Shown here: in pieces, positions 212 through 31,938 of the stretch | Position numbering within the stretch: position 1 is the stretch's first letter | How the letters are laid out: each line of letters opens with the position of its first letter | Assembly: GCA_012840125.1 (NCBI GenBank) | Contig: DULZ01000040.1 | Location: 1 to 32,379 of the forward strand | Source: Clostridia bacterium | GTDB lineage: Bacteria > Bacillota > DULZ01 | Direction: 5' to 3' | DNA length: 32,379 nucleotides | Translations under genes and position numbers: made by a program | The notes under the pieces: generated by a model | Database searches by the model: none | What the model was told of the DNA's origin: nothing | What the model saw: only the letters and a program-made list of their open reading frames with translations

Positions 212-898
212 TTGGTCGGCAGCACCATTTTCAAAAAGTTGTTTTACGAAAATGCTAATTTGTCTTCCGGAGATAAATCTTTGTTGGCAGATGTCATACA
301 CAAGGTGGAATGGGTCTATTGTCTCAAACCTGAGACGATCAATATACCGGCATACAAGGACGAGGTGCGAGAGTACCCGGAGATTGAGGTTATAGAAGTC
401 GTGGTAAATAAAGATTACAAGCTTCAAAGAGTAGCCGAAATTATCATGAGAGCTATCCCGTACCCGATGCTGCTGATTTTTAAGCATGAAGATAAGAAAC
501 GGTTTTTTGTCGCTCACCAGAGGACAAGCCAAAGTGACAGCAGCAAGAATACCATTGAGGAATTCGTGACTACCGACTGGTTAGCGGGGGATAGCCCTTT
601 ATTTGCAAGGCTTGATATCAAGCAAATGAGGTTTACTAATCTCTATACCCTCTACAGTGACATTGTAGACGCCATCAGTATTTATAACCTGTCTGCCATT
701 ACGCCTACCACCGGTGATCTAACAGGTGCTGAGGCAAGAAAGCTTCTGGCCATGGTAGAGGAAATAGACCGGGAGATTGATAGCTTAAGGTCTAAACTAA
801 GAAAGGAAACCCAGTTTAATCGCAGAATGGAACTGAATATAGAAATTAAGAAATTGGAACGGAGAAAAAATGTGTTGTTTGGAGGAGGGAAAGAATGA
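212..898 (+). CDS. DUF4391 domain protein of a Type III restriction-modification locus
   Basis: A protein of about 228 residues resembling the DUF4391 family, which commonly sits beside Type III mod/res genes or associated helicases; its biochemical role is not established. The C-terminal 60 residues are rich in Glu, Lys and Arg and look like a coiled coil. The only usual start codon in frame is TTG at 212, behind a weak AAGGA. The frame is open back to 164, and the stretch just upstream of the TTG reads FLNIPKDC, resembling the MFNIPK-like N-terminus I recall for the family. The authentic start may therefore have been lost or altered close to the upstream repeat array. The stop overlaps the start of mod (ATGA at 895-898), so the two are translationally coupled. 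Family assignment is by recognition, not by a search. Confidence 0.72.
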   Translation: MVGSTIFKKLFYENANLSSGDKSLLADVIHKVEWVYCLKPETINIPAYKDEVREYPEIEVIEVVVNKDYKLQRVAEIIMRAIPYPMLLIFKHEDKKRFFVAHQRTSQSDSSKNTIEEFVTTDWLAGDSPLFARLDIKQMRFTNLYTLYSDIVDAISIYNLSAITPTTGDLTGAEARKLLAMVEEIDREIDSLRSKLRKETQFNRRMELNIEIKKLERRKNVLFGGGKE

Positions 899-2811
899 TA
901 GAGACAAAACTCACAGGCAAAACTCCCGATCTAGCGGAAGAGAATATTAAAAGGCTGATGACGCTCTTCCCTGAAGTGGTGACAGAAGGAAAGGTGGATT
1001 TTGAAAAGCTAAAACAACTCTTGGGTGAATACGTCGATGACAGTAACGAACGCTACAATTTCACTTGGAACGGGAAAGGGCGAGCCCTGCGCTTGTCCCA
1101 AACACCTTCCCTGGGAACGTTAAGGCCGTGCAAGAAAGAGAGTAAGAACTGGGAGACAACTCAGAACCTTTATATTGAGGGCGATAACCTAGAAGTGTTA
1201 AAGCTTTTGCAAAAAAGCTATTATGGAAAGATCAAAATAATATACATAGATCCGCCATACAATACTGGGACCGACTTTGTTTACAAGGATGATTTTCACG
1301 ACAGTATTGAAAACTACAAGAGAATCACAGGACAAGTTGATGGTAATGGCAATTTAATATCCACCAATCCAGAAACTAGCGGTCGTTACCATACGGACTG
1401 GCTAAATATGATGTATCCAAGGTTAAGACTTGCAAGAAATCTGCTAAGTGATGATGGAGTCATTTTTATTAGTATTGATGATAATGAGGTGCATAATCTA
1501 AGAAAGATTTGTGATGAAGTATTCGGAGAGGAGAACTTTGTTGCACAGTTTGTTTGGGTCAAAAAGAAAAAAGGGAGTCATTTGTCAAGAACAACGCGAA
1601 GTATGACAGAATATGTTATGTGCTATGCTAAGGTAATTGAAAAAGTCGAGTTATATGGTGAAGATGCTTATAGTGATAAGCAACAACCATTGGCAAAAAG
1701 AACAAACTCAATTAAACAACTCATTTTTCCAAAAAATACTGTAAGAACGACACTGGGTGATGGGGTATATAAAGCCAATAAATATGGAGAAGGAACAACG
1801 GCCTTAACTTTTAAGAACGATATTATTGTTGCAAAAGGGATTGTACGGTCAGAGATCATTGTCGAAGGACCATTTGTCTGGACACAAACTAAACTAGATG
1901 AGGAAATAAAGAGTGGTACCATTGTCTATTTATCAAAAAAATTCGGCTTTAATGTGCTACGCTCAGATCAAAGTGAAAAGATTAAACGGCCACCTACTCT
2001 AATTGATAATAAAATAAATGTCGGCACCAATGAAGATGCATATCAGGAGGCTTTAGAACTATTCGGGCGAGAGGGTATTATGAGTTACCCAAAACCCGTA
2101 TCATTGATCAAATTCTTAGTAAATACAATAACCTACTTCAATAAAGACGCAATAGTCCTCGACTTCTTTGCCGGCTCAGCTACTACAGCCCATGCTGTAA
2201 TGCAACTTAACGCCGAAGACGGCGGCAAGCGTAGATTTATTATGGTCCAGCTTCCTGAGCCGGTCGATGAAAAATCGGAAGCCTATGAGGCCGGCTTTAA
2301 AAACATCAGCGATATAGGCAAAGCTCGGATCTGCCGTGCAGGTGAGAAAATAAAAGCAGAATATAAGGATGAGCAAAACATAGACCACCTGGATATCGGC
2401 TTTAAAGTGTTTAAACTTGACACTTCTAATATCCGGAAATGGCAGCCGGATTATGATAATTTAGAGCAGTCCTTATTCGATTATATAGACAACTTTGTGG
2501 AAGGCAGGACGGAACTGGATGTTGTCTTTGAGATCATGCTCAAATACGGTCTTGACCTGGCCTACCCGGTTGATGAGTTTACCATTGCCGGTAAGAAAGT
2601 CTATTCTATTGGTTATGGTATGCTCATGATTTGTCTTGATGATGAAATTACCACAGAGGTCGCCCGGGGCATCTTGGCAAAAATTAAAGAATTATCTCCG
2701 GAAAGCAGCCGGGTGGTATTTAAGGATAATGGATTTAAGTCGGACAGCAATAAGACTAATATCAAGGAGATATTCAAATCCGGCGGGATTGAAGAGTTTA
2801 TCACCATCTAG
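895..2811 (+). CDS. mod: Type III restriction-modification DNA methyltransferase (Mod)
   Basis: An adenine-N6 DNA methyltransferase of the beta class, 638 residues, within the usual range for Mod. Catalytic motif IV DPPYNTG is at residues 119-125 and the AdoMet-binding motif I, DFFAGSATT, at 423-431. Motif IV preceding motif I is the beta-class order. The region between (roughly residues 215-390) is the expected target recognition domain. That part is very AT-rich: bases 1681-1740 are 28 percent GC, against 50 percent for 2221-2280 in the conserved part. Mod acts with Res, sets the target specificity and methylates one strand of an asymmetric site. The ATG at 895 overlaps the upstream stop, and GGAGG at 882-886 lies inside that gene. 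The res gene follows after 15 bases. Confidence 0.95.
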   Translation: MIETKLTGKTPDLAEENIKRLMTLFPEVVTEGKVDFEKLKQLLGEYVDDSNERYNFTWNGKGRALRLSQTPSLGTLRPCKKESKNWETTQNLYIEGDNLEVLKLLQKSYYGKIKIIYIDPPYNTGTDFVYKDDFHDSIENYKRITGQVDGNGNLISTNPETSGRYHTDWLNMMYPRLRLARNLLSDDGVIFISIDDNEVHNLRKICDEVFGEENFVAQFVWVKKKKGSHLSRTTRSMTEYVMCYAKVIEKVELYGEDAYSDKQQPLAKRTNSIKQLIFPKNTVRTTLGDGVYKANKYGEGTTALTFKNDIIVAKGIVRSEIIVEGPFVWTQTKLDEEIKSGTIVYLSKKFGFNVLRSDQSEKIKRPPTLIDNKINVGTNEDAYQEALELFGREGIMSYPKPVSLIKFLVNTITYFNKDAIVLDFFAGSATTAHAVMQLNAEDGGKRRFIMVQLPEPVDEKSEAYEAGFKNISDIGKARICRAGEKIKAEYKDEQNIDHLDIGFKVFKLDTSNIRKWQPDYDNLEQSLFDYIDNFVEGRTELDVVFEIMLKYGLDLAYPVDEFTIAGKKVYSIGYGMLMICLDDEITTEVARGILAKIKELSPESSRVVFKDNGFKSDSNKTNIKEIFKSGGIEEFITI

Positions 2812-2826
2812 GGAGGTATGGTCTGA

Positions 2827-5814
2827 ATGAAGCTTAAATTTGATAAAAACCTTGAATATCAACAGCAGGCCATAGCTTCCGTGGTTGATTTGTTTAGAGG
2901 CCAAACACCTATGCAGAGCAATTTTTCCGTGTCGCCTTATAATGGGCAAATCGGTATGTTTAACACGGAAAACGGAATTGGCAATCGGCTGGAGTTGGAT
3001 GAAGAAGAGATACTAAAGAACCTGCAGGAAGTCCAGCTCAGGAATGGCCTGCCGCAGACCAAGTTCTTGAGAGCCGGGGAGTATGATTTTGATATTGAGA
3101 TGGAAACCGGCACAGGCAAGACCTATGTGTACTTAAGAACGATCTTGGAACTCCATAAAAACTATGGGTTTTCTAAATTTATCATCGTTGTTCCCAGTAT
3201 TGCCATAAAAGAAGGGGTGTATAAGACTTTACAGATTACCGAGGAGCATTTTAAGGAATTATATGACAATCCAATCTACAACTATTTTGTCTATGACAGC
3301 AGCAAGTTGGAACAGGTCAGAAGCTTTGCGGTAAGTGACAATGTTGAGATAATGATTATCAACATTGACGCTTTTAGAAGGAGTTTTACGGATCCCACCA
3401 AGGAAAACAAGGCTAATATTATTCATAGACCCAATGACAGGTTGAATGGCATGAAACCCATTGAGCTCATTCAAGAGACCAGGCCCATCGTTATTATCGA
3501 CGAGCCGCAATCGGTTGATACTACTCCTAAAGCCAAAGAGGCCATCAAATCCCTTAAACCGTTGTTTATCTTACGTTATTCGGCCACCCATGTGGAAAAG
3601 CATAATCTGGTTTACAAGCTGGATGCCGTGGACAGCTATAATCTAGGTCTAGTTAAGCAGATAGAAGTCGCCGGCTTCACGACTAAAGACTACCATAATA
3701 CGGCATATCTAAAACTCTTGTCGGTGGACAACAAAAAATCTCCTATAACAGCAAGAATTGAGCTGGATGTCAGGGACAGAAAAGGTGTGGTCAAACGGAA
3801 ACCGGTAACAGTTAAATGTGGCGATGACCTTTATGAAAAATCCGGTGGCCGTGACGTCTATGAAGGGTACATTGTCGGCGAGATTTATTGTGAGGAAGGA
3901 AATGAATACGTTGCCTTTACCAGCAAGCCCGATATCCTGCGGATAAACCAGCCGATAGGAGACGTGGATGACCTGTTCTTAAAAGAACAGCAGATTAAGA
4001 AAACCATCGAGGAGCATTTAGATAAAGAATTGAAGCTTAACCAGCGGGGCATCAAAGTGTTGAGCCTGTTCTTTATAGACCGGGTAGCAAATTATCGTTA
4101 CTATGATGAAAACGGGAATCCCCAAAAAGGCATCTATGCTAAGCTCTTTGAAAAACATTATAAAGCCCTCCTCAGGCAGCCGAAGTATAAATCCCTGCTC
4201 AAGGATGGGGAGGATTTGGATACCGCGGCTGAAGAAGCCCATAACGGCTATTTTTCACAAGATAAAAAAGGTGTTTTCAAGGATACCAGTGGTTCTACCC
4301 AAGATGATGAGGATACCTATAACCTCATCATGAAGGACAAGGAGCGCCTGTTATCTTTTGACAGTAAGCTGAGGTTCATCTTCTCCCATTCGGCATTGCG
4401 GGAAGGCTGGGATAACCCCAATGTGTTCCAGATATGCACCTTGAATGAAACCAAAAGTGAAGTCAAAAAACGTCAGGAGATTGGCCGAGGCCTGCGCCTT
4501 TGTGTAAACCAGGCAGGAGAACGCCAGTACGATTCTTCCATCAACACCCTGACGGTGATCGCTAATGAAAGCTATGAGGAATTTGCAGCGGCTCTCCAGC
4601 AGGAATATGAAACTGACAGCGGCATAAGGTTTGGTGTTATTGAAAGCCATGTTTTCGCCAATATACCCGTCAGACAATTGGACGGAAGTGTCAAATACCT
4701 GGGGCAGGAAGCCTCCGAGGCTATATTTAAAGCGTTTTTGGTTGGCGGCTATATCGATGAGACCGGGAAAGTGCAGGATAAGCTCAAAATTGATCTAAAA
4801 GACAACAAGTTAAATGTACCGGCGGAATATGAACATGTCAAAGAAGAGATTGCCGCTCTTGCCAGGAAACTGTGCAGCGGTCTTAAGATCAGGAACCACA
4901 GCGATAAGAAGACCGTTCAGCTTAACAAGCAGGTTTACCTGGACCCTGAGTTCAAAAAACTATGGGACAAAATAAAATACAAGACAACCTATTCAGTGGA
5001 TTTTGACAGCAAAGAGCTCATTGAAGCATGCTGCCAAGAAATGCAGGAAAGCCTGACTGTCAGTTCTCCGAAGCTGATATATACGAAAGCAGGACTCGAT
5101 ATTAGTGCCAGCGGCGTTGTGGCGGAAGAGTCCGATAGATACGCGGTGCCTTTGGAGAACCAGCGGGATCAACTGCCGGATATCATTACCTATCTCCAGA
5201 ACGAAACCAATCTAACCAGAAGAACTATTGTGGAGATATTAACGAAGAGCAAGACTCTTCACCTTTTCAAGAAAAATCCACAAAGGTACATGGAGCAGGT
5301 AGCCCAGATTATCACTTCAAAAATGAGGCTCATGATCGTGGATGGGATCAAGTACACTAAGTTAGGCGATGATCATTACTATGCCCAAGAGCTATTCGAG
5401 ACGGAAGAGCTTATCGGCTACTTATCTAAGAACATGATCAAGAGTAAGAAATCCGTTTATGAATACGTGGTCTATGATAGTGCTACGGAAGAAAGCTTTG
5501 CCAAGAGCTTTGAGAGCAATAGCAGGGTCAAGTTGTATGTAAAGCTTCCAAGTTGGTTTACCGTGCCGACACCTTTAGGCAGCTATAATCCTGATTGGGC
5601 CGTGCTCATTGATGTGGACGGCCAGGATAAACTTTACTTTGTCCTGGAAACAAAGGCTAACACAATGACTGACGCCCTGAGACCAACGGAAAAGGCTAAG
5701 ATTGATTGCGGCAAGAAGCATTTTGGGTCCCTAGGTACCGGAGTAACCTTTGAAGATGTGGATAGTTTTAAGAAATTTATCGAGGAGAAAGTGGTAATAG
5801 AGCCGGGCGTATAG
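2827..5814 (+). CDS. res: Type III restriction endonuclease Res subunit
   Basis: A superfamily 2 helicase/translocase fused to a nuclease, 995 residues, a normal full length for Res. Walker A is METGTGKT (residues 92-99), motif II is DEPQ (225-228) and motif III is SAT (252-254). Motif VI lies in a segment reading QEIGRGLRL. The C-terminal nuclease shows PD (922-923) followed by ETK (941-943), a PD-ExK core. All key residues are present, so the enzyme looks active. It needs ATP and the Mod subunit to cut DNA near unmodified inverted sites. The Shine-Dalgarno GGGAGGT begins at the last base of the mod stop codon. A three-codon ATG-GTC-TGA frame (2818-2826) sits between it and the ATG at 2827. 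Confidence 0.95.
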   Translation: MKLKFDKNLEYQQQAIASVVDLFRGQTPMQSNFSVSPYNGQIGMFNTENGIGNRLELDEEEILKNLQEVQLRNGLPQTKFLRAGEYDFDIEMETGTGKTYVYLRTILELHKNYGFSKFIIVVPSIAIKEGVYKTLQITEEHFKELYDNPIYNYFVYDSSKLEQVRSFAVSDNVEIMIINIDAFRRSFTDPTKENKANIIHRPNDRLNGMKPIELIQETRPIVIIDEPQSVDTTPKAKEAIKSLKPLFILRYSATHVEKHNLVYKLDAVDSYNLGLVKQIEVAGFTTKDYHNTAYLKLLSVDNKKSPITARIELDVRDRKGVVKRKPVTVKCGDDLYEKSGGRDVYEGYIVGEIYCEEGNEYVAFTSKPDILRINQPIGDVDDLFLKEQQIKKTIEEHLDKELKLNQRGIKVLSLFFIDRVANYRYYDENGNPQKGIYAKLFEKHYKALLRQPKYKSLLKDGEDLDTAAEEAHNGYFSQDKKGVFKDTSGSTQDDEDTYNLIMKDKERLLSFDSKLRFIFSHSALREGWDNPNVFQICTLNETKSEVKKRQEIGRGLRLCVNQAGERQYDSSINTLTVIANESYEEFAAALQQEYETDSGIRFGVIESHVFANIPVRQLDGSVKYLGQEASEAIFKAFLVGGYIDETGKVQDKLKIDLKDNKLNVPAEYEHVKEEIAALARKLCSGLKIRNHSDKKTVQLNKQVYLDPEFKKLWDKIKYKTTYSVDFDSKELIEACCQEMQESLTVSSPKLIYTKAGLDISASGVVAEESDRYAVPLENQRDQLPDIITYLQNETNLTRRTIVEILTKSKTLHLFKKNPQRYMEQVAQIITSKMRLMIVDGIKYTKLGDDHYYAQELFETEELIGYLSKNMIKSKKSVYEYVVYDSATEESFAKSFESNSRVKLYVKLPSWFTVPTPLGSYNPDWAVLIDVDGQDKLYFVLETKANTMTDALRPTEKAKIDCGKKHFGSLGTGVTFEDVDSFKKFIEEKVVIEPGV

Positions 5815-13024: not shown

Positions 13025-13060
13025 TATAAATATAGACAAATCATCACTAGGAGGGAGAGC

Positions 13061-13444
13061 ATGGGAGACAAAGGATTGTCGGTACTGCTGGTAGATGATT
13101 CGTTGCTGGTGCGGAAGCAGTTGCGGGGGATGCTAGAGGAAATGAACTGCACGGTGCTGGAAGCGGCCAACGGCGTGCAGGCTGTGGACATAGTGGCTAA
13201 GGATAAGCCTGATCTGGTCTTGATGGATATCGTCATGCCAGAAACGGACGGGATTGAGACACTGAAAAAGATCAAGGAGATCAATCAGGCGGTAAAAATC
13301 GTGATGGTTTCTTCGGTGGGCACCCAGTCTTACTTGAAAGAAGCCATCAAGTCGGGGGCCTTTGATTTCCTGCAGAAGCCGGTGGACAAAGAAGCGCTGC
13401 AAAGGTTGGTCGGGAAACTGCAAAAAGCGGGGAGTGAAGCCTGA
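13061..13444 (+). CDS. CheY-like single-domain response regulator
   Basis: A 127-residue stand-alone receiver. The acidic pair is D12-D13, the phosphoryl acceptor D56 (LVLMDIVMP), the switch Ser S84 or S85 (MVSS) and the conserved Lys K106 (QKPVD). There is no output domain, so it must act by protein contact like CheY, or by being phosphorylated as a sink. AGGAGGGAGAG precedes the ATG. Its TGA overlaps the ATG of the next gene (TGATG), so the two products are made together, and the next protein carries a CheX-like phosphatase domain that probably dephosphorylates this receiver. No histidine kinase is nearby. Confidence 0.93.
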   Translation: MGDKGLSVLLVDDSLLVRKQLRGMLEEMNCTVLEAANGVQAVDIVAKDKPDLVLMDIVMPETDGIETLKKIKEINQAVKIVMVSSVGTQSYLKEAIKSGAFDFLQKPVDKEALQRLVGKLQKAGSEA

Positions 13445-14319
13445 TGTTTAGCCAGTATTTCGGTCAATATCTACTGAACCGGGGTATTGTAGCCGGGGAA
13501 GTGCTGCTTAAGGCTCTGGAAGCCCAGCAGCAGTCCCATGTGAAGTTAGGAGTTTTAGCCGTGGGAGCGGGATTGTTGACCGCCGCCCAGGTGGAGGAGA
13601 TCCACCGGGAACAGACCAGGCAGGACAAGAAGTTCGGGGAAATCGCCATGGAAAAAGGGTATTTAACCCAGGCGCAGTTGGAGGAGCTGCTGGCCTCCCA
13701 GAAACAGGGACACCTGCAGCTGGGCCAAGCTCTCATTGATGCCGGGGCCCTGACCTTTGAACAATTGGAAAAAGCCCTCCAGGATTATCAGAAGGAGTAT
13801 AGTTTCAGCGACAAGGAATTCGCCTCCGTGCAGGAAGGTAATGTGGAGCTGCTGTTGGCAAGAACTCTGCAGCTGGACCCCGGTGAGGAATACTTGAACA
13901 GCTACATCTACCTGTTTGCGCGGAACTTGGTGCGGTTTGTGGACCCCCATGCCTGGCTGGAACCGGTGGACGGGGGCAGCAAAGACCGGTTGGCCGGTGC
14001 CTGGTCCGTAGAACAGCAGATCGAAGGGGAGTTTGCCTTGAAGACCGGTATCACCGGGAGCGAGCAGGGCTTCTGTAAGCTGGCCTCCGCCTTCGCCGGG
14101 GAAAAAATCGAGGCCATGGGAGAACTGGGGCAGGCTTCGGTGGCTGAGTTCCTGAACCTGCACAACGGTATTTTCCTGGTGAACATGTCCAACCTGGGCA
14201 TGGAATTGAAACTGCAGCCGCCGGTGGTTAAGGAAGGGGCTTTAGGCTGGCAAGGGGATCACCGTGCCTTCAAAGTTAACTTCCCGGGTGGACAATTTGC
14301 GCTGCTGCTGCAAGGATAA
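13444..14319 (+). CDS. MshEN-type c-di-GMP-binding repeats fused to a CheX-like phosphatase domain
   Basis: A 291-residue two-part protein. The N-terminal part has four motif copies starting at residues 6, 35, 64 and 93, an exact 29-residue period. Each has an F/LG start, a Gly eight positions later and Leu/Gln positions as in the MshE N-terminal (MshEN) c-di-GMP-binding motif: FGQYLLNRG, LGVLAVGAG, FGEIAMEKG, LGQALIDAG. The C-terminal part (about 125-291) resembles CheX/CheC phosphatases: a LASAFAGE segment (213-220), then E235 and N238 in AEFLN. The usual Asp/Ser four residues before the Glu is Ala231. It is coupled to the CheY-like gene by TGATG overlap. The likely job is c-di-GMP-gated dephosphorylation of that receiver; this is inference. 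There is no membrane segment. Confidence 0.75.
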   Translation: MFSQYFGQYLLNRGIVAGEVLLKALEAQQQSHVKLGVLAVGAGLLTAAQVEEIHREQTRQDKKFGEIAMEKGYLTQAQLEELLASQKQGHLQLGQALIDAGALTFEQLEKALQDYQKEYSFSDKEFASVQEGNVELLLARTLQLDPGEEYLNSYIYLFARNLVRFVDPHAWLEPVDGGSKDRLAGAWSVEQQIEGEFALKTGITGSEQGFCKLASAFAGEKIEAMGELGQASVAEFLNLHNGIFLVNMSNLGMELKLQPPVVKEGALGWQGDHRAFKVNFPGGQFALLLQG

Positions 14320-14321
14320 AC

Positions 14322-14357
14322 AAAAGGAAACGGCTGGCAACGGCCGTTTCCTTTTTT
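14322..14357. terminator. Bidirectional intrinsic terminator
   Basis: A perfect 13-bp stem (AAAAGGAAACGGC, 14322-14334, with GCCGTTTCCTTTT, 14343-14355) and an 8-base loop; the T-run extends to 14357. It ends the signalling operon on the plus strand, and it lies just past the cblS stop on the minus strand. Confidence 0.9.
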
Positions 14358-15120
14358 AGCCCACAATCCTGCCGATGTAGGTGATGGGCAGGGAAAAGTC
14401 CCGGTACAGGGTTTCCCCGCTGCCTGGCTCCACGGCGGCTACGAGGCAGGTGGCCGGCCCGGCTGATTTGGTCAAAGGCAGCGGGCAGCGGGAGTCCACC
14501 TGCAGCCGGCCGCCGCAGGACCGGGTCAGGAGCTCGGCTTCGTAGCGGATCCCCTTGGAACCCACCGGCGCCATCTCATGCACCTGGGGGTACTGCAAAA
14601 GCTTGACCACGGTGTTGAAACTGATAATGTCCGGGTCATCCAAGTCCACTTCGGCCCCAACTTTAGGTATCCCAAAGCAGTAGATTTCGTGACCGGGTCT
14701 CACCTTTCCGATGCGGAGCTCTTCTTTCCCCGCCAGGGCAACGACGGTGATGCCGATACCGCTTTGCCTGGTCACAAAGTTTTCCTCGGTACTGCCGGTC
14801 AGGTGGCATTTGCCTTCTAAGCCCAGCAGTTTTAGTTCGTGTTGGATGCCGGCGAGGATTTCCCGGCCGCTGGGTTCCATTTCCAGCGTGAGGCAGTCGG
14901 AGATCAGCACCGGTCTGGCTCCCACCGCCAGCAGTTCCAGCAGGGGGACCCGGGCGGCGCAGCGCCCCACAATGAAATAGGGAACCTGCAATGCATCCAA
15001 TTCCTTGGCGCCCACGGCGCCGATGGAATCACAAGCGACCAGGATCCTTTGGCTGTCGTCGAGCTCAATGATGCTTAAATCGCGCACTTGGGTAATTTTC
15101 GGCCAAATCCCGGTGTTCAT
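14356..15120 (-). CDS. cblS: Alpha-ribazole kinase (CblS), AIR-synthase-like
   Basis: A 254-residue protein of the PurM/AIR-synthase-like fold resembling CblS, which phosphorylates alpha-ribazole so that it can be joined to cobinamide in cobalamin salvage. Family-like segments are ILVACDSIGAVGAKE (26-40), VGRCAARVPLLELLAVGA (about 51-68) and GSTEENFVTRQSGIGITVVA (about 108-127), which contain the nucleotide-binding acidic and Gly-rich residues. The start lies 10 bases downstream of the cblT stop, and the unit is headed by a cobalamin riboswitch, which fits the assignment strongly. A weak ribosome site (GGTGAG) suggests coupling to cblT. Confidence 0.8.
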   Translation of the reverse strand: MNTGIWPKITQVRDLSIIELDDSQRILVACDSIGAVGAKELDALQVPYFIVGRCAARVPLLELLAVGARPVLISDCLTLEMEPSGREILAGIQHELKLLGLEGKCHLTGSTEENFVTRQSGIGITVVALAGKEELRIGKVRPGHEIYCFGIPKVGAEVDLDDPDIISFNTVVKLLQYPQVHEMAPVGSKGIRYEAELLTRSCGGRLQVDSRCPLPLTKSAGPATCLVAAVEPGSGETLYRDFSLPITYIGRIVG

Positions 15121-15130
15121 GTGGTCTCAC

Positions 15131-15640
15131 CTATACCATGTTTCCCAAAGCGCGGTACAGGACGTATGCCAGCACCGTATTGACCAGGGCCGCCACCGTG
15201 AGAGGCAGTACCATCCCGTAAAAGATTCCAGGGCCTAGGATGGGCACCAGGCTTAAAGGCATTAGCACGCCGTTGATGAACACCGCCGCGGCGACGGCGA
15301 TGACCCCATTGGTCTTGTGGAGCAGCAAGGCAAAGAGGGAGACGGCCACGGCCATTTGCAGCGCAACTAGCAGGTGGATCGGCAGGGACAGGGGAAAACC
15401 GGCACTATAGGCGCTGGCCAGGTGCCCCAAGGCGGCGATGACCAGTCCTTCTTTCCAGCCCAACAAGGCTGCACCCAGAAAACCAGGCGCCGAGTCCAGG
15501 GCCACCGTCCCGGTCGGGCTGGGGATTTTCAGCATGGCGCCAATGACGCTCAGGGCGATGAATAAAGCCATCAAGACCAGGCGCTTCACTTGCCAAAAGC
15601 TTTGCACATTCTGTTTGATTTTGGTTTCCGGTACGGACAT
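15131..15640 (-). CDS. cblT: Alpha-ribazole transporter (CblT), ECF-type S component
   Basis: A 169-residue integral membrane protein with about five hydrophobic helices and the features of an energy-coupling-factor S component: a KRLVLMALFIALS first helix (19-31), then a conserved loop with SPTGTVALDSAPGF (41-54) and a Gly/Ala-rich helix. It is followed by cblS and preceded by a cobalamin riboswitch, the arrangement known for CblT, which imports alpha-ribazole. The ECF ATPase and T components are not in the window and would be shared from elsewhere. AAGGAGG lies seven bases before the ATG. Confidence 0.82.
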   Translation of the reverse strand: MSVPETKIKQNVQSFWQVKRLVLMALFIALSVIGAMLKIPSPTGTVALDSAPGFLGAALLGWKEGLVIAALGHLASAYSAGFPLSLPIHLLVALQMAVAVSLFALLLHKTNGVIAVAAAVFINGVLMPLSLVPILGPGIFYGMVLPLTVAALVNTVLAYVLYRALGNMV

Positions 15641-15724: not shown

Positions 15725-15773
15725 CCATCATCCTCATTGCTTCCCCTCCTTTCTACGAGAAGGCGGATCAAGC

Positions 15774-15945
15774 ACTGATAGGCAGGTCTCCTGGCTCCCG
15801 GGTCATCCTCCCCTCGCCTTCCCACCAAGAACTTGGCAGTGGCTTATGAGGTTTGTCCCCGTCTACAGTGGCGGGACCGCGTCTTTTGGGGTATGGCTGC
15901 CCCTTGACTTCCCTATTCTCCCGAAATGGGCACCTACCAGCTTGT
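15774..15945 (-). promoter_or_regulatory. Cobalamin (B12) riboswitch aptamer
   Basis: Read on the minus strand, it contains the B12 box AGCCAGGAGACCTGCC (15796-15781), the conserved GGTCCCGCCACTGTAG (15877-15862) and the upstream segment GGTGCCCATTTCGGG and AGGGAAG (15934 to about 15910). It lies between ktrA and cblT and reads into cblT-cblS. Cobalamin-responsive repression of alpha-ribazole salvage is the expected outcome. Confidence 0.93.
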
Positions 15946-15962
15946 ATGCGGTTGTTATTTCG

Positions 15963-21342: not shown

Positions 21343-21362
21343 CATGCTGTTTGAAGTATAAT
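21333..21362 (+). promoter_or_regulatory. Second possible promoter, close to the orphan gene
   Basis: TTTACC (21333-21338), an 18-base spacer and TATAAT (21357-21362). It would bypass most of the structured leader. Confidence 0.45.
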
Positions 21363-21416
21363 AAAAGTAACAATTACTGGATTTGTCAACTGGTTAATTT
21401 AGGAAGGGGGAACGAA

Positions 21417-21953
21417 ATGGGATTGCAAACCTTTTACCTCGGTGACCTGCATCCCGGCAATTGGCATGAGATCTTCGTTTTCTGCCTTCAGTATGCGGAT
21501 AGCTTTAGTGTGCGGCTGCTGCAGTCGGATGATATAAAGAACGAAGGTTTTAAAGCCTTATTCTCACTGCCCGATATCGCCATCTCCAACTGGTGGGGGA
21601 CGAAGGACGGCATTGAGATCAAGGGCCCGTTAACAGATGAAGTGCGGAATTTGCTCTATGAACTGCAGGAACCGGCTTTTTACGGCCAATGCCCCCAGCT
21701 GTGGGATCTGAAATTGTTTTCCCAGGGCAGGGAAGTCCTGTCCATCGGTGATTTTACCCAGCGGGTGATTCACCTGACGGATGAAGAGATTGATTACCTG
21801 CTGGCCCAGGATATGGATTTCACTGACTGGGAGAATATTGCCACCACTTTTGCCGAGGGAGAAGCGGAAGTGGAAGAGGAGCTGGATGAAGAGCTCTTAA
21901 GGGAAATCGCCGGCATTATCAGCCACTGGTTAAACAGCGATAAAAAGCATTAA
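21417..21953 (+). CDS. Orphan acidic protein of unknown function
   Basis: A 178-residue protein I do not recognise. It is acidic, with no signal peptide or membrane helix. It begins MGLQTFYLGDLHPGNWHEI, is rich in aromatic residues (WW in the middle, several W and Y) and ends in a Glu-rich stretch followed by a short helix. It may be a small globular cytosolic protein. ATG 21417 is chosen because GGAAGGGGG lies just before it; the frame is open upstream to 21351, but no ribosome site precedes that TTG. It has its own promoter(s) and a strong terminator, so it is a single-gene unit. Confidence 0.75.
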   Translation: MGLQTFYLGDLHPGNWHEIFVFCLQYADSFSVRLLQSDDIKNEGFKALFSLPDIAISNWWGTKDGIEIKGPLTDEVRNLLYELQEPAFYGQCPQLWDLKLFSQGREVLSIGDFTQRVIHLTDEEIDYLLAQDMDFTDWENIATTFAEGEAEVEEELDEELLREIAGIISHWLNSDKKH

Positions 21954-23821: not shown

Positions 23822-23853
23822 AAAAACAGGAGCCTGTGAGGCTAGGCTCCTGT
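23822..23853 (-). terminator. Terminator of the 2-hydroxyacid operon
   Basis: A perfect 10-bp stem (AGGCTCCTGT, 23844-23853, with ACAGGAGCCT, 23826-23835), an 8-base loop and, on the minus strand, a TTTTTC tail. The stop codon of the LarA-like gene lies inside the hairpin. Confidence 0.92.
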
Positions 23854-25104
23854 GCCAATGCGGTTCAGTAACTCACCCTCCGGTGAGAAGCTGTAATTAA
23901 ATTCTTCGAGTTGTTCCCAAGCACAATTGGGGTCAATGTCGTCGATTAAAGGTTTGGAAATGAACATTTCCGACAATTCCAGGGTGTTTTTAATCTGCAC
24001 GATCCTGGCGTTTTCCGCGCTCACCTTGCGACCGGCGCATCTTAATGCCACTTCCATGGCCGCCTGGTCACTGGGCTGGACGATGGGGACAAAGCCCCTT
24101 TCCAGGAAAGTGCTGGTAATGACATTCGCATAGGTGACCTGGTAATCGATTTTGTCAGCCAGGCGGGCGGGAATCACATCCGCCAGGCCGACACCGAGGG
24201 CGTTCCCGTGGCTTTCCGGTGTCAGGTCAAGGCAGACAATCCGGCGGATGGTGGGATGTTCCGGTTGGCGGTTGAGGCGGATGCCCATCCGCCCGGTAAT
24301 ATTGGGATCCATCCCGACGCCGCTGATGTTTTTCCCCATTTCTTGAACGACCAAAAGGTCCATGTCCGATACCGGCAGGCGGGGCATGAGCCGGCGGGCC
24401 ATTTGCAAAAGCCCCGGTTCTTCGGGAAGCATTTGTTCACTGGTGAGAAACTTGATGACGGCCGTTTGGTCTTTGGCGTTTTCCAGCACTGCCACCCCGC
24501 CCAAGATGGGAGCTTTGTTCAGGATGAGAGCACCCATTTCCGGAATCAGTTCTTCCAGTCCCATCAGGCCGTAACTGTGCACCAGTTGGGCTCCCTGGTG
24601 GTTGCCCAGGCCGATGACCATTTGTTTTACCAGGCCGCTTTCATAGGTGGCGTGAAAATCCGTGTGAGGTTTGACCCTATTTAACAGGATGATGCCGTCC
24701 AGGGAAGCGGCGATGCGGTCAAAATAAACCGGGATGTCATGGCGCACATGTCCCAGGCAAACTGTTTCCATGGAACTGGCAATGGGGGCTTGAATATATG
24801 CTTCGGTGATACCGTAGGAAGCCAGTACTTCCTTTTGACCTTCCGCCGTCGCACCGCCGTGGCTGCCCATGGCCGGGATGACCAGCGGTTCTGCGCCCTT
24901 CTGCCGCAAGAAATCGACCAGGGTTTTGACCATGAGGCTGATGTTGGCGATGCCCCGGCTGCCTACGGCAATGCCGATCCTGGCTCCCGGCTGCACCCGC
25001 AGCTCGGCGCCGGACAGCTGGTTTAACAGCTCACCTGCAACATTTTCGATGACCGGTGCCTCGAAGTCGAGACGAATTCTGACCATGGTGGGGAAGAGGG
25101 ACAT
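23842..25104 (-). CDS. LarA-like protein (DUF2088, nickel-dependent lactate racemase superfamily)
   Basis: A 420-residue protein of the lactate racemase superfamily, in which a nickel-pincer nucleotide cofactor catalyses 2-hydroxyacid racemisation or epimerisation. Visible features are IAVGSRG (45-51), the PAMGSHGGAT segment (78-86) and KPHTDFHATYESGLVK (145-160); SGLVK resembles the SGGAK of LarA, whose Lys carries the cofactor, and H147 and H151 could be ligand or base. This is a distant clade, so the substrate cannot be assumed to be lactate. ATG 25104 is used because AAGGAGG is upstream and an earlier in-frame start would overlap glcF. Cofactor genes larB, larC and larE are not in the window. 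It is the last gene of the operon. Confidence 0.82.
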   Translation of the reverse strand: MSLFPTMVRIRLDFEAPVIENVAGELLNQLSGAELRVQPGARIGIAVGSRGIANISLMVKTLVDFLRQKGAEPLVIPAMGSHGGATAEGQKEVLASYGITEAYIQAPIASSMETVCLGHVRHDIPVYFDRIAASLDGIILLNRVKPHTDFHATYESGLVKQMVIGLGNHQGAQLVHSYGLMGLEELIPEMGALILNKAPILGGVAVLENAKDQTAVIKFLTSEQMLPEEPGLLQMARRLMPRLPVSDMDLLVVQEMGKNISGVGMDPNITGRMGIRLNRQPEHPTIRRIVCLDLTPESHGNALGVGLADVIPARLADKIDYQVTYANVITSTFLERGFVPIVQPSDQAAMEVALRCAGRKVSAENARIVQIKNTLELSEMFISKPLIDDIDPNCAWEQLEEFNYSFSPEGELLNRIGTGA

Positions 25105-25130
25105 ATCAGTGATTAACCTCCTTAAGTCGA

Positions 25131-26402
25131 TTACATGATGCCTGCACTGGCCGCCAAAAGCTGGACGGGGTGCCTGACCTGAGCTTTGATGCCTCTTTGC
25201 TGTAGCCCGGCGGAGAGCTGCATGGTGCAAGCCGGGCAAGCTGTGGCCAGCACTTCCGCTCCCGTTTCGATAAAGTTATCTATTTTACCCTGAAGGATTT
25301 GTTTTGACATTTCCCCTTGGGTGAGGAAATATGACCCGGCGCCGCCGCAGCACCAGTCCGCCTGTTTCATTTCCACGAAAGTGAGGCCTGGAATGCTCTG
25401 CAGGATTTTACGGGGTTCCTCTTTGATGCCTAACCCGCGTACAAGATGGCATGGGTCGTGAAAGGTGACCCTTTTGTTTACGGGTTTTAATTCCGGGAGA
25501 GGCAAGTAGCGGGCAATGAACTGGTTCAGGTCCAGTACTTTTGCCGTAAAGGATTGTACTTGTTCCTGTTCCTCCGGGCCGAAGAAACGGGCGTATTCTT
25601 TCAGGGTGGAGGTGCAGGTGGCACAGTCGCTGACGATGTAGTCGCAGTTTTCCTGAATAAAATAGGTGACATTGGCTCTGGCTAAACGCTGGGCTTCTTC
25701 CAAGTCACCGGCGCTGTAGTGGGGACCGCCGCAGCACTGGACCGGGGGCACCACCACTTCGCAACCCAGGTGCTGCAGGTAGAGGATAGTCGCTGCGGCG
25801 ATGTCGCTGAAAAAGTTATCGGTGGCACAGCCTAAGAAATACCCGATCTTAAACTTAGGCTGCTCTACCTTTTTCAACAGCTCCGGCAGCCGGCTGCGGG
25901 CGCTTTTTGGCAAATCGACCGGGAGATAGCTTTCCAAGCGACCGAGGTTCTCAAAAAGGCTGGTGATGCGGGTGTTTCTTACCAGCCAGCGCATGCCGCT
26001 TTTGTTGTAAAAGCGGGCCAGGCTCATTACTTTCGGCAGCCGCCGGCGCCGGGACAGGACGCCGCGGTACAAGGCCTTGTGCAGGAACTTCAGACCGTTG
26101 GCCCGGTTCAGTTTCTCCCGGGCTTTGATCACCAGCTCATCCGTAGGTACGGTGGAAGGGCAGTTGACCACACAGGCCTTGCACAACAGGCAGCTTCGCA
26201 GCAATTGATCCAGTTCAGGGTCGTCACCCCAATCCTGGGCATTTTCCTGGATTAACCGGATCAAGCGAATTCTACCCCGGGCGAGTAAACCTTCGTTCTT
26301 GGTGTAGTAATAAGTAGGGCAAATGTTTTGGCAAAAGCCGCACCTGTTGCAGCGCCGTATTTGCTGCAGGAATTCTTGCTCAGTCAAGGTCTTCACCTCC
26401 AA
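25131..26402 (-). CDS. glcF: Glycolate/2-hydroxyacid oxidase iron-sulfur subunit (GlcF-like)
   Basis: A 423-residue Fe-S subunit. Two 4Fe-4S ferredoxin motifs lie at C18, C21, C24, C28 and C71, C74, C77, C81. They are followed by two CCG domains with CCGGPH and FHDPCHLVRGLG...CCGGAGSYFL, typical of GlcF, LldE and heterodisulfide-reductase-type subunits. It would pass electrons from the flavin subunits to a quinone or another acceptor. Its ATG at 26402 lies inside the last 23 bases of glcE, so translation is coupled. No membrane helix is seen. Confidence 0.93.
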   Translation of the reverse strand: MEVKTLTEQEFLQQIRRCNRCGFCQNICPTYYYTKNEGLLARGRIRLIRLIQENAQDWGDDPELDQLLRSCLLCKACVVNCPSTVPTDELVIKAREKLNRANGLKFLHKALYRGVLSRRRRLPKVMSLARFYNKSGMRWLVRNTRITSLFENLGRLESYLPVDLPKSARSRLPELLKKVEQPKFKIGYFLGCATDNFFSDIAAATILYLQHLGCEVVVPPVQCCGGPHYSAGDLEEAQRLARANVTYFIQENCDYIVSDCATCTSTLKEYARFFGPEEQEQVQSFTAKVLDLNQFIARYLPLPELKPVNKRVTFHDPCHLVRGLGIKEEPRKILQSIPGLTFVEMKQADWCCGGAGSYFLTQGEMSKQILQGKIDNFIETGAEVLATACPACTMQLSAGLQQRGIKAQVRHPVQLLAASAGIM

Positions 26403-27525
26403 GCCATGGGTGGCAGGGGAACATAATCCGGTCCGGGTCTAAGGCAGCTTTCAGTTTTTGATATAACGGGTCTACTGGAGGCTTAACCCAGCTGTAGCTT
26501 AAGGCGTAGTCCCCGCCCAGCGTCACCAACTGCTGCCGGAGCTGCTGTCGCTCTTCTGCCGGTGGGCTGATGATGACCTCGCCTAGGCCCAGATCGATGT
26601 CGCAGAAGTAGTTTTGATCTGGTTTAACCACTTGGCTTAACATGCCTGCCAGGTTCCAGATTTGTTTCTTGCCGCATCTGATGGTGAGGAGTTTTTGCCG
26701 GTCCGGCACGGTTTGCTCGTAGTACTGCCGCCAGAAATCGCGGCAGTCATCAAATACCTGCTGTTCATAGGGGGCGCAGAGTTTTTGTAGTGCCGCCAGG
26801 TGCCCGGTCACCGTCTCTTGAAAGCCGCCTAAGTTGATGACGAGCTGCCAGGCTCCGCCGGGTGCGGCAGCCTTAAATATCCTTAAAGCTGTGATGCTGC
26901 TTCGGGCCCCTCTGATTTCCCGGGCCAGCCGGTAGGCTTCCTCTACCCCAGGCAAGCCGTGCACTAACAGGGCGGAGCGCTTTTCCAACTGGGGTCTCAG
27001 TTTAAAGGTGATGGAGGTGATAATCCCCAGGGTGCCCCAGCTCCGGGCGAACAGCCGGGTGAAATCGTAGCCGCTCACGTTCTTGACGGTTTTGCCCCCT
27101 GTCATTACCCGGGTGCCATAGGGGGTGATGAATTCCAAACCCAAGATATGGTTTTGGATGGTGTCGTAGGCATAACTTTCATAGCCGGCGGCGTCTTCAG
27201 CTACCAGGCCGCCTAGGGTACGGTGACCGTGGCTTTCGACGGTTATGGGCAGGAAAAGATTATGTTCTCTCACAGCCCGGTCCAGTTCCGCCAGGGTCAT
27301 GCCCGCTTGAACCTTCACGGAAAGGTTATTCACGTCCAGGTCCTCTATGGCGTTGAGTTTCAGGGTGGAAACCAATTTCACCGGCTGTCCGGTGGGTGCG
27401 ATCAGCTGTTCCACCAGGTGTCCTTTGCCGCAGGGGATAACCCCAAATTTTACTGACCGGGCGTCACGGATGATCTGGCAGATGGCTTCCGGTGATTCAG
27501 GATAGAGCTTTTCATAAGTGTCCAT
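26380..27525 (-). CDS. glcE: FAD-binding subunit of 2-hydroxyacid oxidase (GlcE-like)
   Basis: A 381-residue FAD_binding_4 (PCMH-type) protein. The FAD pyrophosphate segment includes VIPCGKGH near the N-terminus and GLVAEDAAGYESYAYD (about 107-122); RLFARSWGTLGIIT matches the family. It is shorter and more divergent than GlcD, as for GlcE. ATG 27525 is chosen because AAAGGG lies nine bases upstream; an ATG at 27534 directly abuts it. It sits between glcD (20 bases upstream) and glcF (overlapping). Confidence 0.9.
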   Translation of the reverse strand: MDTYEKLYPESPEAICQIIRDARSVKFGVIPCGKGHLVEQLIAPTGQPVKLVSTLKLNAIEDLDVNNLSVKVQAGMTLAELDRAVREHNLFLPITVESHGHRTLGGLVAEDAAGYESYAYDTIQNHILGLEFITPYGTRVMTGGKTVKNVSGYDFTRLFARSWGTLGIITSITFKLRPQLEKRSALLVHGLPGVEEAYRLAREIRGARSSITALRIFKAAAPGGAWQLVINLGGFQETVTGHLAALQKLCAPYEQQVFDDCRDFWRQYYEQTVPDRQKLLTIRCGKKQIWNLAGMLSQVVKPDQNYFCDIDLGLGEVIISPPAEERQQLRQQLVTLGGDYALSYSWVKPPVDPLYQKLKAALDPDRIMFPCHPWLGGEDLD

Positions 27526-27545
27526 TGTTACCATCCCTTTCCCGT

Positions 27546-28925
27546 TTAGAGGTCCAGTATTTTACCCTTGTTGAAGTAGAGGGTCGGATCCAGGGCCTTC
27601 TTCACAATGGCCATGAATTCCAGGTCTGCCGGGCTGAAAGCGTGCTGCATATACGGCAGTTTCTCCAAACCGATACCGTGCTCCCCGGTCAGGGTGCCTT
27701 CTAACGCTAGGGTTTTCATGAAGATTTCCCGGCTGGCTTCTTCCACCCGGTGATATTCTTCCGGATCATCGGGGCTGTAAAGCAAGTGGGGGTGCAGATT
27801 CCCGTCACCGGCGTGGGCCATCTGGGCAATGACGATGTTGTATTTCTCCGCCACTTTAGCGACGAAACGCAGCATTTCCGGCAGTTTATGTACCGGCACC
27901 GTCACATCCTGCACCATGTAAGCAGGTTTAATCCGGCCCAAAGCCCCGTTGCCGGAACGGCGGGCCAGCCAGAGTTTTTGCCTTTCTTCCTCATCTTTGG
28001 CCATTTTAAAGTCCCGGGCGTTATTCTCCGCAAAGATTCTCCTGATGGTATCCATTTGCCGTTCCAATTCCACGGCGTAACCGTCTACTTCCACCAACAG
28101 CAGCGCTTCCGCATCCCGCGGCAATCCCAAGTGAAGGAAGTCATCGACGGCTTTGATTAACGTATTATCGAGCATTTCCAAGGTGGTAGGAACAATCCCC
28201 TGGGCAATGATGGTAGAAACGGCTTGGCCTGCTTCATCGAGGCTGGCGAAAGCCGCCGAAGCCGTCATGGTCTTTTCCGGCAGGGGACTCAGTTTTAACA
28301 GGACTTTAGTCACAATGCCAAAAGTACCCTCGGAGCCGTGGAAGATGCCGGTGAAATCGGGGGCAAACTGGCCGGCGGGAGCCAGCATGCCGGTGGTGAC
28401 CGTCTCCCCGTCCGGCAGGACCACTTCCAGGCCCAGTACGTGGTTTTTCATAACTCCGAATTTAACCCCCCGGATGCCCCCGGCACACTGGGCAATGTTG
28501 CCGCCGATAGTGGCGGATTTTTGGCTGGCCGGATCCGGTGGAAACATGAGGCCGTAAGGCTCAAGGGCATTTTGGAGGTCAAGATTGACGACGCCGGGCT
28601 CCACCAGCGCAGTGCCTGCCAAAGGATCGATGTCCAAGATGCGGTTCATCTTGGTCAGGACGAGAGAGATCCCGCCGTGCCAGGGGACGGCACTGCCGCT
28701 TAAGCAGGTCCCTGCCCCTCTGGGTACCAGGGGCAAGGAGTGCTCCGCGGCGAGTTTGACTACGGCCGTTACTTGCTCCTTATTTTCCGCAAATACGACC
28801 GCTTCCGGGGGATGGATAAAGGGGGAGGAATCATAAGCATAGACTTCTAAAGCTCTGGGGGAGGTGAGCACGTTTGCTTTTCCTACAATCTGCTGCAGCT
28901 TCGCCATAATGGGTTGTGAGAGCAT
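27546..28925 (-). CDS. glcD: FAD-linked 2-hydroxyacid dehydrogenase catalytic subunit (GlcD-like)
   Basis: A 459-residue flavoprotein of the GlcD/D-lactate dehydrogenase family. PRGAGTCLSGSAVP (49-62) and SATIGGNIAQCAGG (about 136-149) form the FAD site. The C-terminal FAD-oxidase domain has AHAGDGNLHPHLLY and GEHGIGLEKLPYM near the end. It oxidises a D-2-hydroxy acid to the 2-oxo acid; glycolate, D-lactate or another acid is possible. GGGAGGT is placed nine bases before the ATG. It lies 15 bases after the TRAP permease gene, so import and oxidation are encoded together. Confidence 0.93.
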   Translation of the reverse strand: MLSQPIMAKLQQIVGKANVLTSPRALEVYAYDSSPFIHPPEAVVFAENKEQVTAVVKLAAEHSLPLVPRGAGTCLSGSAVPWHGGISLVLTKMNRILDIDPLAGTALVEPGVVNLDLQNALEPYGLMFPPDPASQKSATIGGNIAQCAGGIRGVKFGVMKNHVLGLEVVLPDGETVTTGMLAPAGQFAPDFTGIFHGSEGTFGIVTKVLLKLSPLPEKTMTASAAFASLDEAGQAVSTIIAQGIVPTTLEMLDNTLIKAVDDFLHLGLPRDAEALLLVEVDGYAVELERQMDTIRRIFAENNARDFKMAKDEEERQKLWLARRSGNGALGRIKPAYMVQDVTVPVHKLPEMLRFVAKVAEKYNIVIAQMAHAGDGNLHPHLLYSPDDPEEYHRVEEASREIFMKTLALEGTLTGEHGIGLEKLPYMQHAFSPADLEFMAIVKKALDPTLYFNKGKILDL

Positions 28926-28940
28926 GGGCCGTCTACCTCC

Positions 28941-30218
28941 CTATTTAGTCAGTAAGTTGGGTAACCACAGCGATATGGCCGGGATGTAGGAGATGATTAA
29001 GAGGGTCAACAGGGTAACACCTAAATAGACCCAGTTGGCTTTAACAATTCTTTCAATGGTCAATTTACTCAGGCCGCAGGCGACAAATAGGTTCACGCCT
29101 AATGGCGGGGTAATCATGCCGATAGCCAGGTTGATGACCATGATGATACCGAAGTGGATCGGATCAATGCCCATCTGCACCGCCACCGGGAAGAAGATAG
29201 GCGCCAGGATGATAATCGCCGCGTTGGTCTCCATGAAGGTACCTACAATCAAGAGCATGAGGTTGACCAGGAGCAAGAAGACGTATTTGTTGCTGGAGAT
29301 GCTGATGAACCATTGGGCAATGGCATTGGGGATCATCTCCCTGGTCAGGATCAGACCGAAAGCGGAAGCGGTGGCGATAATCAGCATCACCATGGCGGTG
29401 GAAATGGCTGAGGTGCGCAAGACAGGCACCAGGTCCTTAAGGCGCAATTCTCTGTAAATAAAGAAACCTACTATTAATCCGTAAATGACGGCTACGTTGG
29501 CCGCTTCCGTGGGTGTAAAGACACCGCCGTAAATGCCCCCGAGAATGATGATGGGCATGAGCAGGGCAAAAATAGCGTCTTTAAAAGAAGTCCAAATTTC
29601 AGTTACAGAAGGTCTTTCCGAACCGATGTAATTGTTTCGCTTACTGACCATAAAAGCCACCAGCATCAGCGCCAACCCGAACAGGAGACCGGGGATGAAG
29701 TCGGCCATGAATAACCCGCCGATGGAAGCACCGGTGACCACGCCGTAGGTGATCATGGGAATACTGGGCGGGATGATGACTCCGATACATCCGGAGCTGG
29801 CTTGGGTGGCACTGGCAAATTCAAGGGAATAACCCTGCCTGACCATGCCTGGGATCATGATGGAACCGATGGCGGCCACCGTGGCCGGTGATGAACCGGA
29901 AATGGCGGCAAAGAACATGGACGCCAGAATGGTCACCAGTGCCAGTCCGCCGGGCAGGAAGCCGATGAGGGAATTGGCAAACCGGATCAGTCTTTTGGAG
30001 ATGCCCCCTCTTTCCATCAACGCTCCGGCGATCATGAAAAACGGGATGGCCATGAGAGGAAAGGAGTCCGTGGCGGCAAACATCTTCTGGGCTACTACCA
30101 TCGTTGGCACGGTCTTGGCGGTGGCTAGTGCGATGACGGAGGCGAGTCCTAGGCTGACCGCTACAGGCACGTTTAAGAGGATGAGGATGATAAAACTGCC
30201 AAACAGTATTGCACTCAT
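28941..30218 (-). CDS. dctM: TRAP transporter large permease (DctM)
   Basis: A 425-residue membrane protein with about 12 hydrophobic helices and the DctM/SiaM architecture. Signature segments are SFPLMAIPFFMIAGALM (52-68), SGSSPATVAAIGS (109-121) and FTPTEAANVAV near the middle, which line the Na+ and substrate sites. It uses a Na+ or proton gradient to take up organic acids delivered by DctP. Its ATG overlaps the dctQ stop (ATGA at 30218-30215). Confidence 0.95.
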   Translation of the reverse strand: MSAILFGSFIILILLNVPVAVSLGLASVIALATAKTVPTMVVAQKMFAATDSFPLMAIPFFMIAGALMERGGISKRLIRFANSLIGFLPGGLALVTILASMFFAAISGSSPATVAAIGSIMIPGMVRQGYSLEFASATQASSGCIGVIIPPSIPMITYGVVTGASIGGLFMADFIPGLLFGLALMLVAFMVSKRNNYIGSERPSVTEIWTSFKDAIFALLMPIIILGGIYGGVFTPTEAANVAVIYGLIVGFFIYRELRLKDLVPVLRTSAISTAMVMLIIATASAFGLILTREMIPNAIAQWFISISSNKYVFLLLVNLMLLIVGTFMETNAAIIILAPIFFPVAVQMGIDPIHFGIIMVINLAIGMITPPLGVNLFVACGLSKLTIERIVKANWVYLGVTLLTLLIISYIPAISLWLPNLLTK

Positions 30219-30718
30219 TGACTTTCCTCCTCAGGGGCAAAGAGTTTTGCCAAGGTGGCTTGCAAGAAGGAGATGGCCATTAAAACTGTTCCCACCGGCA
30301 CAGCGGCGTAGGCCCAGTACATGGGTATTTCCATGGCAGGGGACAGCTGCCCGGCGTTAAAAATGCCTTGCACTACTTTGAATGACAATACGGCAATGAC
30401 GATGCAAAAGATGATGGAAATAATGCCGGCTAAGAGGCAAGCGAATCTGTAGACGGTTTTTGGCAAAAGGCGGACAAAGGCTTCCACCCCGATGTGAGCG
30501 CCCTCTTTGGCACCGAGGCTGGCCCCGATAAATACCGTCCAGACCATCAAGTAGCGGGCAAGCTCTTCCGACCAGGGCAAGGAACCTTTGACCACAAAAC
30601 GGAAAAACACTTGCAGCCCCACGACGACAATCATGGCAGATAAGGCAGCGACGACGATGGCGGTTTGCACTTTGTCCAGAAAAGTCAGGAGCTTTACTTC
30701 GTTCTGTGTTTTGGCCAA
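30215..30718 (-). CDS. dctQ: TRAP transporter small permease (DctQ)
   Basis: A 167-residue protein with four hydrophobic helices and the DctQ motif FRFVVKGSLPWSEELARYLM (42-61), followed by GASLGAKEGAHIGVEAF. It pairs with DctM. It follows dctP after 79 bases that hold a stem-loop, and the last codons overlap dctM. GGAGGGATAAGC lies before its start. Confidence 0.95.
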   Translation of the reverse strand: MAKTQNEVKLLTFLDKVQTAIVVAALSAMIVVVGLQVFFRFVVKGSLPWSEELARYLMVWTVFIGASLGAKEGAHIGVEAFVRLLPKTVYRFACLLAGIISIIFCIVIAVLSFKVVQGIFNAGQLSPAMEIPMYWAYAAVPVGTVLMAISFLQATLAKLFAPEEESQ

Positions 30719-30762
30719 TGCTTATCCCTCCAATCGCACTAAACAGTGTCCTAAGGAAAGAG

Positions 30763-30790
30763 GCAGGGCTGGAGTTTCCTTCAGCCCTGC
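30763..30790 (-). other. Intercistronic stem-loop between dctP and dctQ
   Basis: A perfect 9-bp stem (GCAGGGCTG, 30790-30782 on the minus strand, with CAGCCCTGC, 30771-30763) with a 10-base loop; there is no T-run, only CTCTTTCC. It probably stabilises or partly terminates the dctP message so that the binding protein is made in excess, which is common for binding-protein operons. Confidence 0.7.
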
Positions 30791-30797
30791 GTCATGA

Positions 30798-31847: not shown

Positions 31848-31938
31848 AACTGGCTTCACCTCTCCGAATTTTTTGAAATAGGGTGCGGTGCACCTCGTCA
31901 CCATTCTCATGGGAAACACCGGCCATTCGTTCAATTAA

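Follow-up and report, generated by a model that had tools for sequence, protein, structure and literature searches.

A conserved gene pair of a CheY-like receiver and a CheX-type phosphatase with a probable c-di-GMP input in a Clostridia bacterium

A 32,379-nucleotide stretch of DNA from a Clostridia bacterium (hereafter the window) carries a two-gene phospho-signalling module that is real and conserved and that has, as judged from its sequence, a probable c-di-GMP input. One gene encodes a CheY-like receiver, and the other a protein in which an array of MshEN_N motifs precedes a CheX-like phosphatase domain. The explanation that we favour, with a probability of roughly 0.5, is that the pair acts as a dedicated phospho-switch whose phosphatase would be tuned by c-di-GMP.

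A receiver gene paired with a CheX-type phosphatase

The two open reading frames overlap by a single base, the stop codon of the receiver gene and the start codon of its partner being joined as TGATG, which agrees with the overlapping arrangement described in the first-pass annotation. The main features are:

13049..13056 (+), ribosome-binding site AGGAGGGA, 5' of the receiver gene, seen directly in the sequence
13061..13444 (+), CheY-like single-domain receiver gene, 127 aa, intact (Pfam Response_reg, E=1.1e-31)
13444..14319 (+), MshEN_N(x4)-CheX gene, 291 aa
13888..14319 (+), CheX-like phosphatase domain, residues about 149-291 (Foldseek: 3hm4, 1squ, 6vpw, 3hzh)
14146..14157 (+), catalytic pair E235 (14146-14148) and N238 (14155-14157), matching E and N of Thermotoga CheX in the alignment
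14322..14360 (unstranded), inverted repeat with T-rich flanks, 3' of the second stop codon; the plus strand also ends in a T run

Upstream of the pair, a promoter scan returned only a chance-level site, and no c-di-GMP riboswitch was found there within the window. The inverted repeat is probably an intrinsic terminator between the pair and the convergent gene at 14356-15120; the terminator scan flagged its minus-strand orientation, at a total number of sites that is about the chance level.

The receiver is a single domain without an output domain. Its active site comprises the phospho-acceptor D56, the acid pocket D12/D13, S84 at the position of CheY Thr87, and K106; all 40 partner receivers compared share D12, D13, D56 and K106, and each carries S or T at position 84. 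Given this conservation, the receiver should be phosphorylatable. Its best match within the host genome is the canonical CheY, at 43% identity, which makes the window receiver an additional CheY-like protein, a paralogue of CheY.

The C-terminal domain of the partner had been called CheX/CheC-like, with E235 and N238 as its key residues, and both the structural comparison and the alignment support this assignment. An AlphaFold2 model built from a 14-sequence alignment (pLDDT 87.4, pTM 0.77) retrieved CheX structures at the top of a Foldseek search, with a best E-value of 5e-10 and target-normalised TM-scores of 0.70-0.77 over the first twelve matches. The matches include the Borrelia CheX-CheY-BeF3 complex (3hzh), and FliY and FliM were also recovered. 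Pfam CheX scores the window protein at 22.7 bits, below its cut-off of 27, and matches 11 of 14 relatives, the best with an E-value of 4e-11. Among full-length homologues, N238 is kept in 35/35 and E235 in 34/35, the single exception being an E-to-D change. In the CheC/CheX/FliY family the water that hydrolyses the phosphate is positioned by the asparagine, and the acidic residue makes contact with the lysine of the receiver (PMC3035606). The fold, the E-x-x-N pair and a presumed single-domain receiver substrate are common to the window protein and the CheX/CheC/FliY phosphatases, such as the CheX proteins of Thermotoga, Borrelia and Desulfovibrio, and we infer that the CheX domain acts as a phosphatase on its own receiver.

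Relatives were collected from a scan of genome contigs, from 399 genomes belonging to the window's phylum and from 395 belonging to the phylum of a Syntrophaceae relative, and MshEN_N-CheX proteins were found in both Bacillota and Thermodesulfobacteriota. An adjacent receiver gene on the same strand accompanies all 34 full-length homologues with readable flanks, upstream in 25 and downstream in 9; a 35th (L083) lies at a contig end and was left out of this count. By contrast, none of 20 stand-alone CheX genes, found with the same profile in different genomes and lacking the N-terminal array, lies within about 1 kb of a receiver (Fisher p=3e-15, relatedness ignored), so the pairing is specific. 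Both the co-occurrence with CheY-like genes that the first-pass annotation had proposed to count and its reading of the locus as a two-gene unit are borne out, the pairing of a phosphatase domain with a receiver strongly so. The gene order takes 2 changes on a maximum-likelihood tree, compared with 8 when labels are shuffled, indicating that the order is inherited with clades.

The MshEN_N repeat array

The same annotation had seen four motif copies with a 29-residue period and read them as two MshEN modules. The four copies and the period are exact, with starts at residues 5, 34, 63 and 92; the earlier positions (6, 35, 64 and 93) had been counted one residue on. The motifs are of the MshEN_N type: NCBIfam NF053729 ('c-di-GMP_motif, MshE-related') matches the 291-aa protein with E=4e-21 and 74.5 bits (cut-off 38), each adjacent motif pair, made up of two 24-residue motifs and a 5-residue linker, exceeds the cut-off alone (41.2, 41.7 and 48.1 bits), and all 14 relatives scanned are matched. 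The profile match and the 35 homologues rule out chance repeats. In the suggested HMM search for MshEN and CheX within one protein, NF053729 thus supplied the first, Pfam CheX stayed under its threshold, and Pfam MshEN (PF05157), a 90-position model for the domain of secretion and pilus ATPases that covers more of MshEN, found no match to the window protein. The 53-residue MshEN_N motif is therefore present and the full MshEN domain absent; with no PF05157 match and no ATPase, a full MshEN or a fragment of a secretion ATPase is ruled out. FumaraseC_C, DUF4388 and EpsG gave sub-threshold matches in the same region and were rejected as its identity. The four copies are:

13456..13527 (+), motif 1, residues 5-28: an aromatic residue replaces R/K at the first position; F6-G7 and Q28 kept
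13543..13614 (+), motif 2, residues 34-57: K34-L35-G36 ... Q57, with His54 at the position of the MshE pocket leucine
13630..13701 (+), motif 3, residues 63-86: canonical, satisfying the 24-residue pattern given in PMC5013675
13717..13788 (+), motif 4, residues 92-115: no basic residue; Y115 replaces Q; G94 present

Like MshE, PilB/PilF, NfrB and the other fusions among the MshEN_N proteins described by Wang et al. 2016, the window protein has R/K-h-G ... Q motifs at a 29-residue period. It differs from them in having four copies, no MshEN_C and no ATPase, and in departures within motifs 1, 2 and 4 that are conserved. These departures are visible across the alignment of 35 full-length homologues, where motif 1 has Y or F at the basic position in 34/35 and keeps FG in 34/35, and motif 4 has no consistent basic residue, a glycine in 16/35 (changed in 19/35) and a terminal Y or F. 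Motifs 2 and 3 keep K/R-h-G, with the glycine in 35/35 for both and the glutamine in 35/35 (motif 2) and 34/35 (motif 3); G36 and Q57 of motif 2 are thus invariant, and H54 is found in 28/35. Even in relaxed form, the residue pattern given by Wang et al. 2016 (PMC5013675) is strictly fitted by motif 3 only, motif 2 failing at His54 and motifs 1 and 4 at their first residue. In the same source, loss of pocket leucines in XpsE goes with loss of c-di-GMP binding. The missing basic residue of motif 1, the pocket histidine of motif 2 and the degeneracy of motif 4 all count against the explanation that we favour.

This conservation weakens the idea of two modules and points to motifs 2 and 3 as the most canonical pair, flanked by degenerate copies. 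A family profile places the MshE structure 5HTL (PDB) on residues 30-102, that is, on motifs 2+3, and the AlphaFold2 model superimposes on the MshE-c-di-GMP complex 5HTL over 57 columns with an rmsd of 1.1 Å, but with an E-value of 1.1. We prefer one predicted c-di-GMP site, probably at motifs 2+3 with degenerate copies on both sides, over two predicted sites at motifs 1+2 and 3+4.

One family within the window's phylum (L038-L042) has eroded or missing MshEN motifs and retains both the receiver and CheX. The pair therefore does not require c-di-GMP sensing; the receiver-phosphatase link is its core and the nucleotide sensor a removable part. We looked for loss of GGDEF in these genomes and did not find it, as 15-19 GGDEF matches remain; the c-di-GMP input can thus be dispensable even where GGDEF genes are many. 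These loci offer a natural series for loss of the sensor part.

Both this lineage and the mismatch of three motifs out of four with the published pattern for binding fit an account in which CheX is a dedicated receiver phosphatase and the array, having lost c-di-GMP binding or binding something else, is a scaffold for docking or oligomerisation. We regard this as rather unlikely, since a scaffold would not obviously need the R/K-h-G and Q of motifs 2 and 3 that nearly all 35 divergent homologues keep, and the c-di-GMP model matches 14/14 scanned relatives.

Proposed mechanism, alternatives and known systems

The host genome, examined by targeted searches, encodes 7 GGDEF domains. Contig 44 carries flagellar genes with CheB-CheA-CheW, and contig 95 a separate CheD-CheR-CheC-CheY-FliM-FliY-MCP cluster (names from translated sequences and CheC matches), so the canonical CheY has its own CheC and FliY. 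The gene for the window receiver lies outside the che/fla clusters. CheW searches yielded one CheW-sized and one CheA-sized gene and, as only one CheA was found, it is the likely phosphodonor of the window receiver. GGDEF and CheW occur in 17/17 carriers of the pair, which is uninformative given their background in the sample of the window's phylum (GGDEF in 371/399 genomes, 93%; CheW in 337/399, 84%).

In the mechanism that we propose for a c-di-GMP-tuned phosphatase, the receiver would be phosphorylated on D56, most likely by CheA, and its partner would remove the phosphate by the CheC/CheX/FliY mechanism, E235 contacting the active-site lysine of the receiver and N238 orienting the attacking water. 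The N-terminal array would bind c-di-GMP, with motifs 2+3 most likely taking up a single molecule, and the bound nucleotide would alter, in one direction or the other, how the CheX domain engages the receiver. It is plausible, as the first-pass annotation had suggested, that c-di-GMP sets receiver dephosphorylation; it would thereby set the lifetime of the phospho-receiver and link the messenger to a chemotaxis-type output. On balance, the chances are about even that c-di-GMP directly controls the phosphatase of a dedicated receiver, and so the lifetime of its signal, in a two-protein module that is widespread in Bacillota and Thermodesulfobacteriota.

It is improbable that the partner is instead a c-di-GMP effector that docks on the phospho-receiver, or on the motor through its FliM/FliY-like fold, with the receiver controlling its localisation and phosphatase activity secondary or absent. 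FliY and FliM were indeed among the fold matches, and effectors acting on the motor through CheY-like proteins exist, as illustrated by Cle in a passage of PMC6200980; however, the catalytic E and N, conserved across full-length homologues apart from the one E-to-D change, are what an active phosphatase would have. Still more doubtful is a phosphate sink, in which a receiver without output of its own drains CheA at a rate set by a c-di-GMP-tuned phosphatase: a single-domain CheY paralogue outside the che/fla clusters and a single CheA, found beside CheW, are consistent with it, but a second motor-binding CheY fits equally and CheA specificity is itself inferred.

c-di-GMP usually enters chemotaxis at the motor (YcgR), or at the receptor or methyltransferase (PilZ adaptors). 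If our preferred mechanism is true, c-di-GMP would enter elsewhere, at the dephosphorylation of the receiver, and would act on the rate constant that governs how long the response lasts. The Cle proteins of Caulobacter are CheY-like c-di-GMP effectors and likewise connect c-di-GMP with CheY-like proteins; there c-di-GMP binds the receiver itself, whereas in the window pair it would bind the phosphatase partner. The Rap phosphatases of Bacillus provide a ligand-controlled phosphatase of a single-domain receiver, and differ from the window protein in having an unrelated fold and a peptide, not c-di-GMP, as their ligand. Their amide-based chemistry is similar to that of the CheX family (PMC3035606), and entry of c-di-GMP at the receiver is cited for Cle in the passage of PMC6200980.

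The first-pass annotation knew of no such system, a view that is weakened by Wang et al. 2016 (PMC5013675), where the chemotaxis phosphatase CheX is one of the domains that MshEN is said to be associated with. The same domain pair is given there in one sentence, and the passage holds nothing on a partner receiver, gene order, conservation or function. In the open-access PMC literature we found no report of receiver pairing or function for MshEN-CheX, Wang et al. 2016 alone naming both domains. If true, the mechanism would provide a direct biochemical link from a second messenger to phosphorylation signalling, of which we found none described, and a candidate protein receptor of c-di-GMP for those Bacillota that have the pair. 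The idea is testable with two purified proteins, since both partners are small, predicted to be soluble and encoded by adjacent genes.

Genomic surroundings and related loci

The pair sits amid metabolic genes, flanked by genes for an F420 ligase-like protein and an AIR synthase-like protein that look unrelated to it. Among relatives the pair persists and its neighbours vary; a close relative (L003) still has the F420 ligase-like neighbour upstream. Elsewhere in the host genome, contig 78 carries a separate stand-alone CheX (L145:1275-1787) that overlaps the end of a hemerythrin-like gene.

Several related loci depart from the common architecture. In Clostridium lacusfryxellense (L014:5001-5636) the MshEN-CheX frame stops early within the CheX domain and the receiver gene is intact. 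In the phylum of the Syntrophaceae relative, eight proteins of 240-310 aa (L098, L099, L101, L102, L104, L105, L107 and L108) have a DnaJ-like N-terminus followed by MshEN-like motifs; Pfam DnaJ falls just under threshold in the four that were scanned, and a fusion of a J-domain with c-di-GMP motifs is possible. A 137-aa protein at L091 consists mostly of MshEN-like motifs and lies directly 5' of, and on the same strand as, an ORF for a CheB-like receiver-methylesterase.

Within the window, a type III restriction-modification pair (DNA methylase and ResIII helicase-endonuclease) occupies 895-5814 (+), and a 200-aa ORF without a Pfam match at E 1e-5 lies at 21351-21953 (+). Two FAD-oxidase-type subunits, a CCG iron-sulphur subunit, a lactate racemase-like protein and a TRAP transporter at 23842-31934 (-) likely form a hydroxy-acid utilisation cluster. 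A cobalamin riboswitch at 15764-15952 (-) (Rfam RF00174, 96 bits) lies upstream of the substrate-binding component of an ECF transporter at 15131-15640 (-), which suggests that this component belongs to a cobalamin-related transporter.
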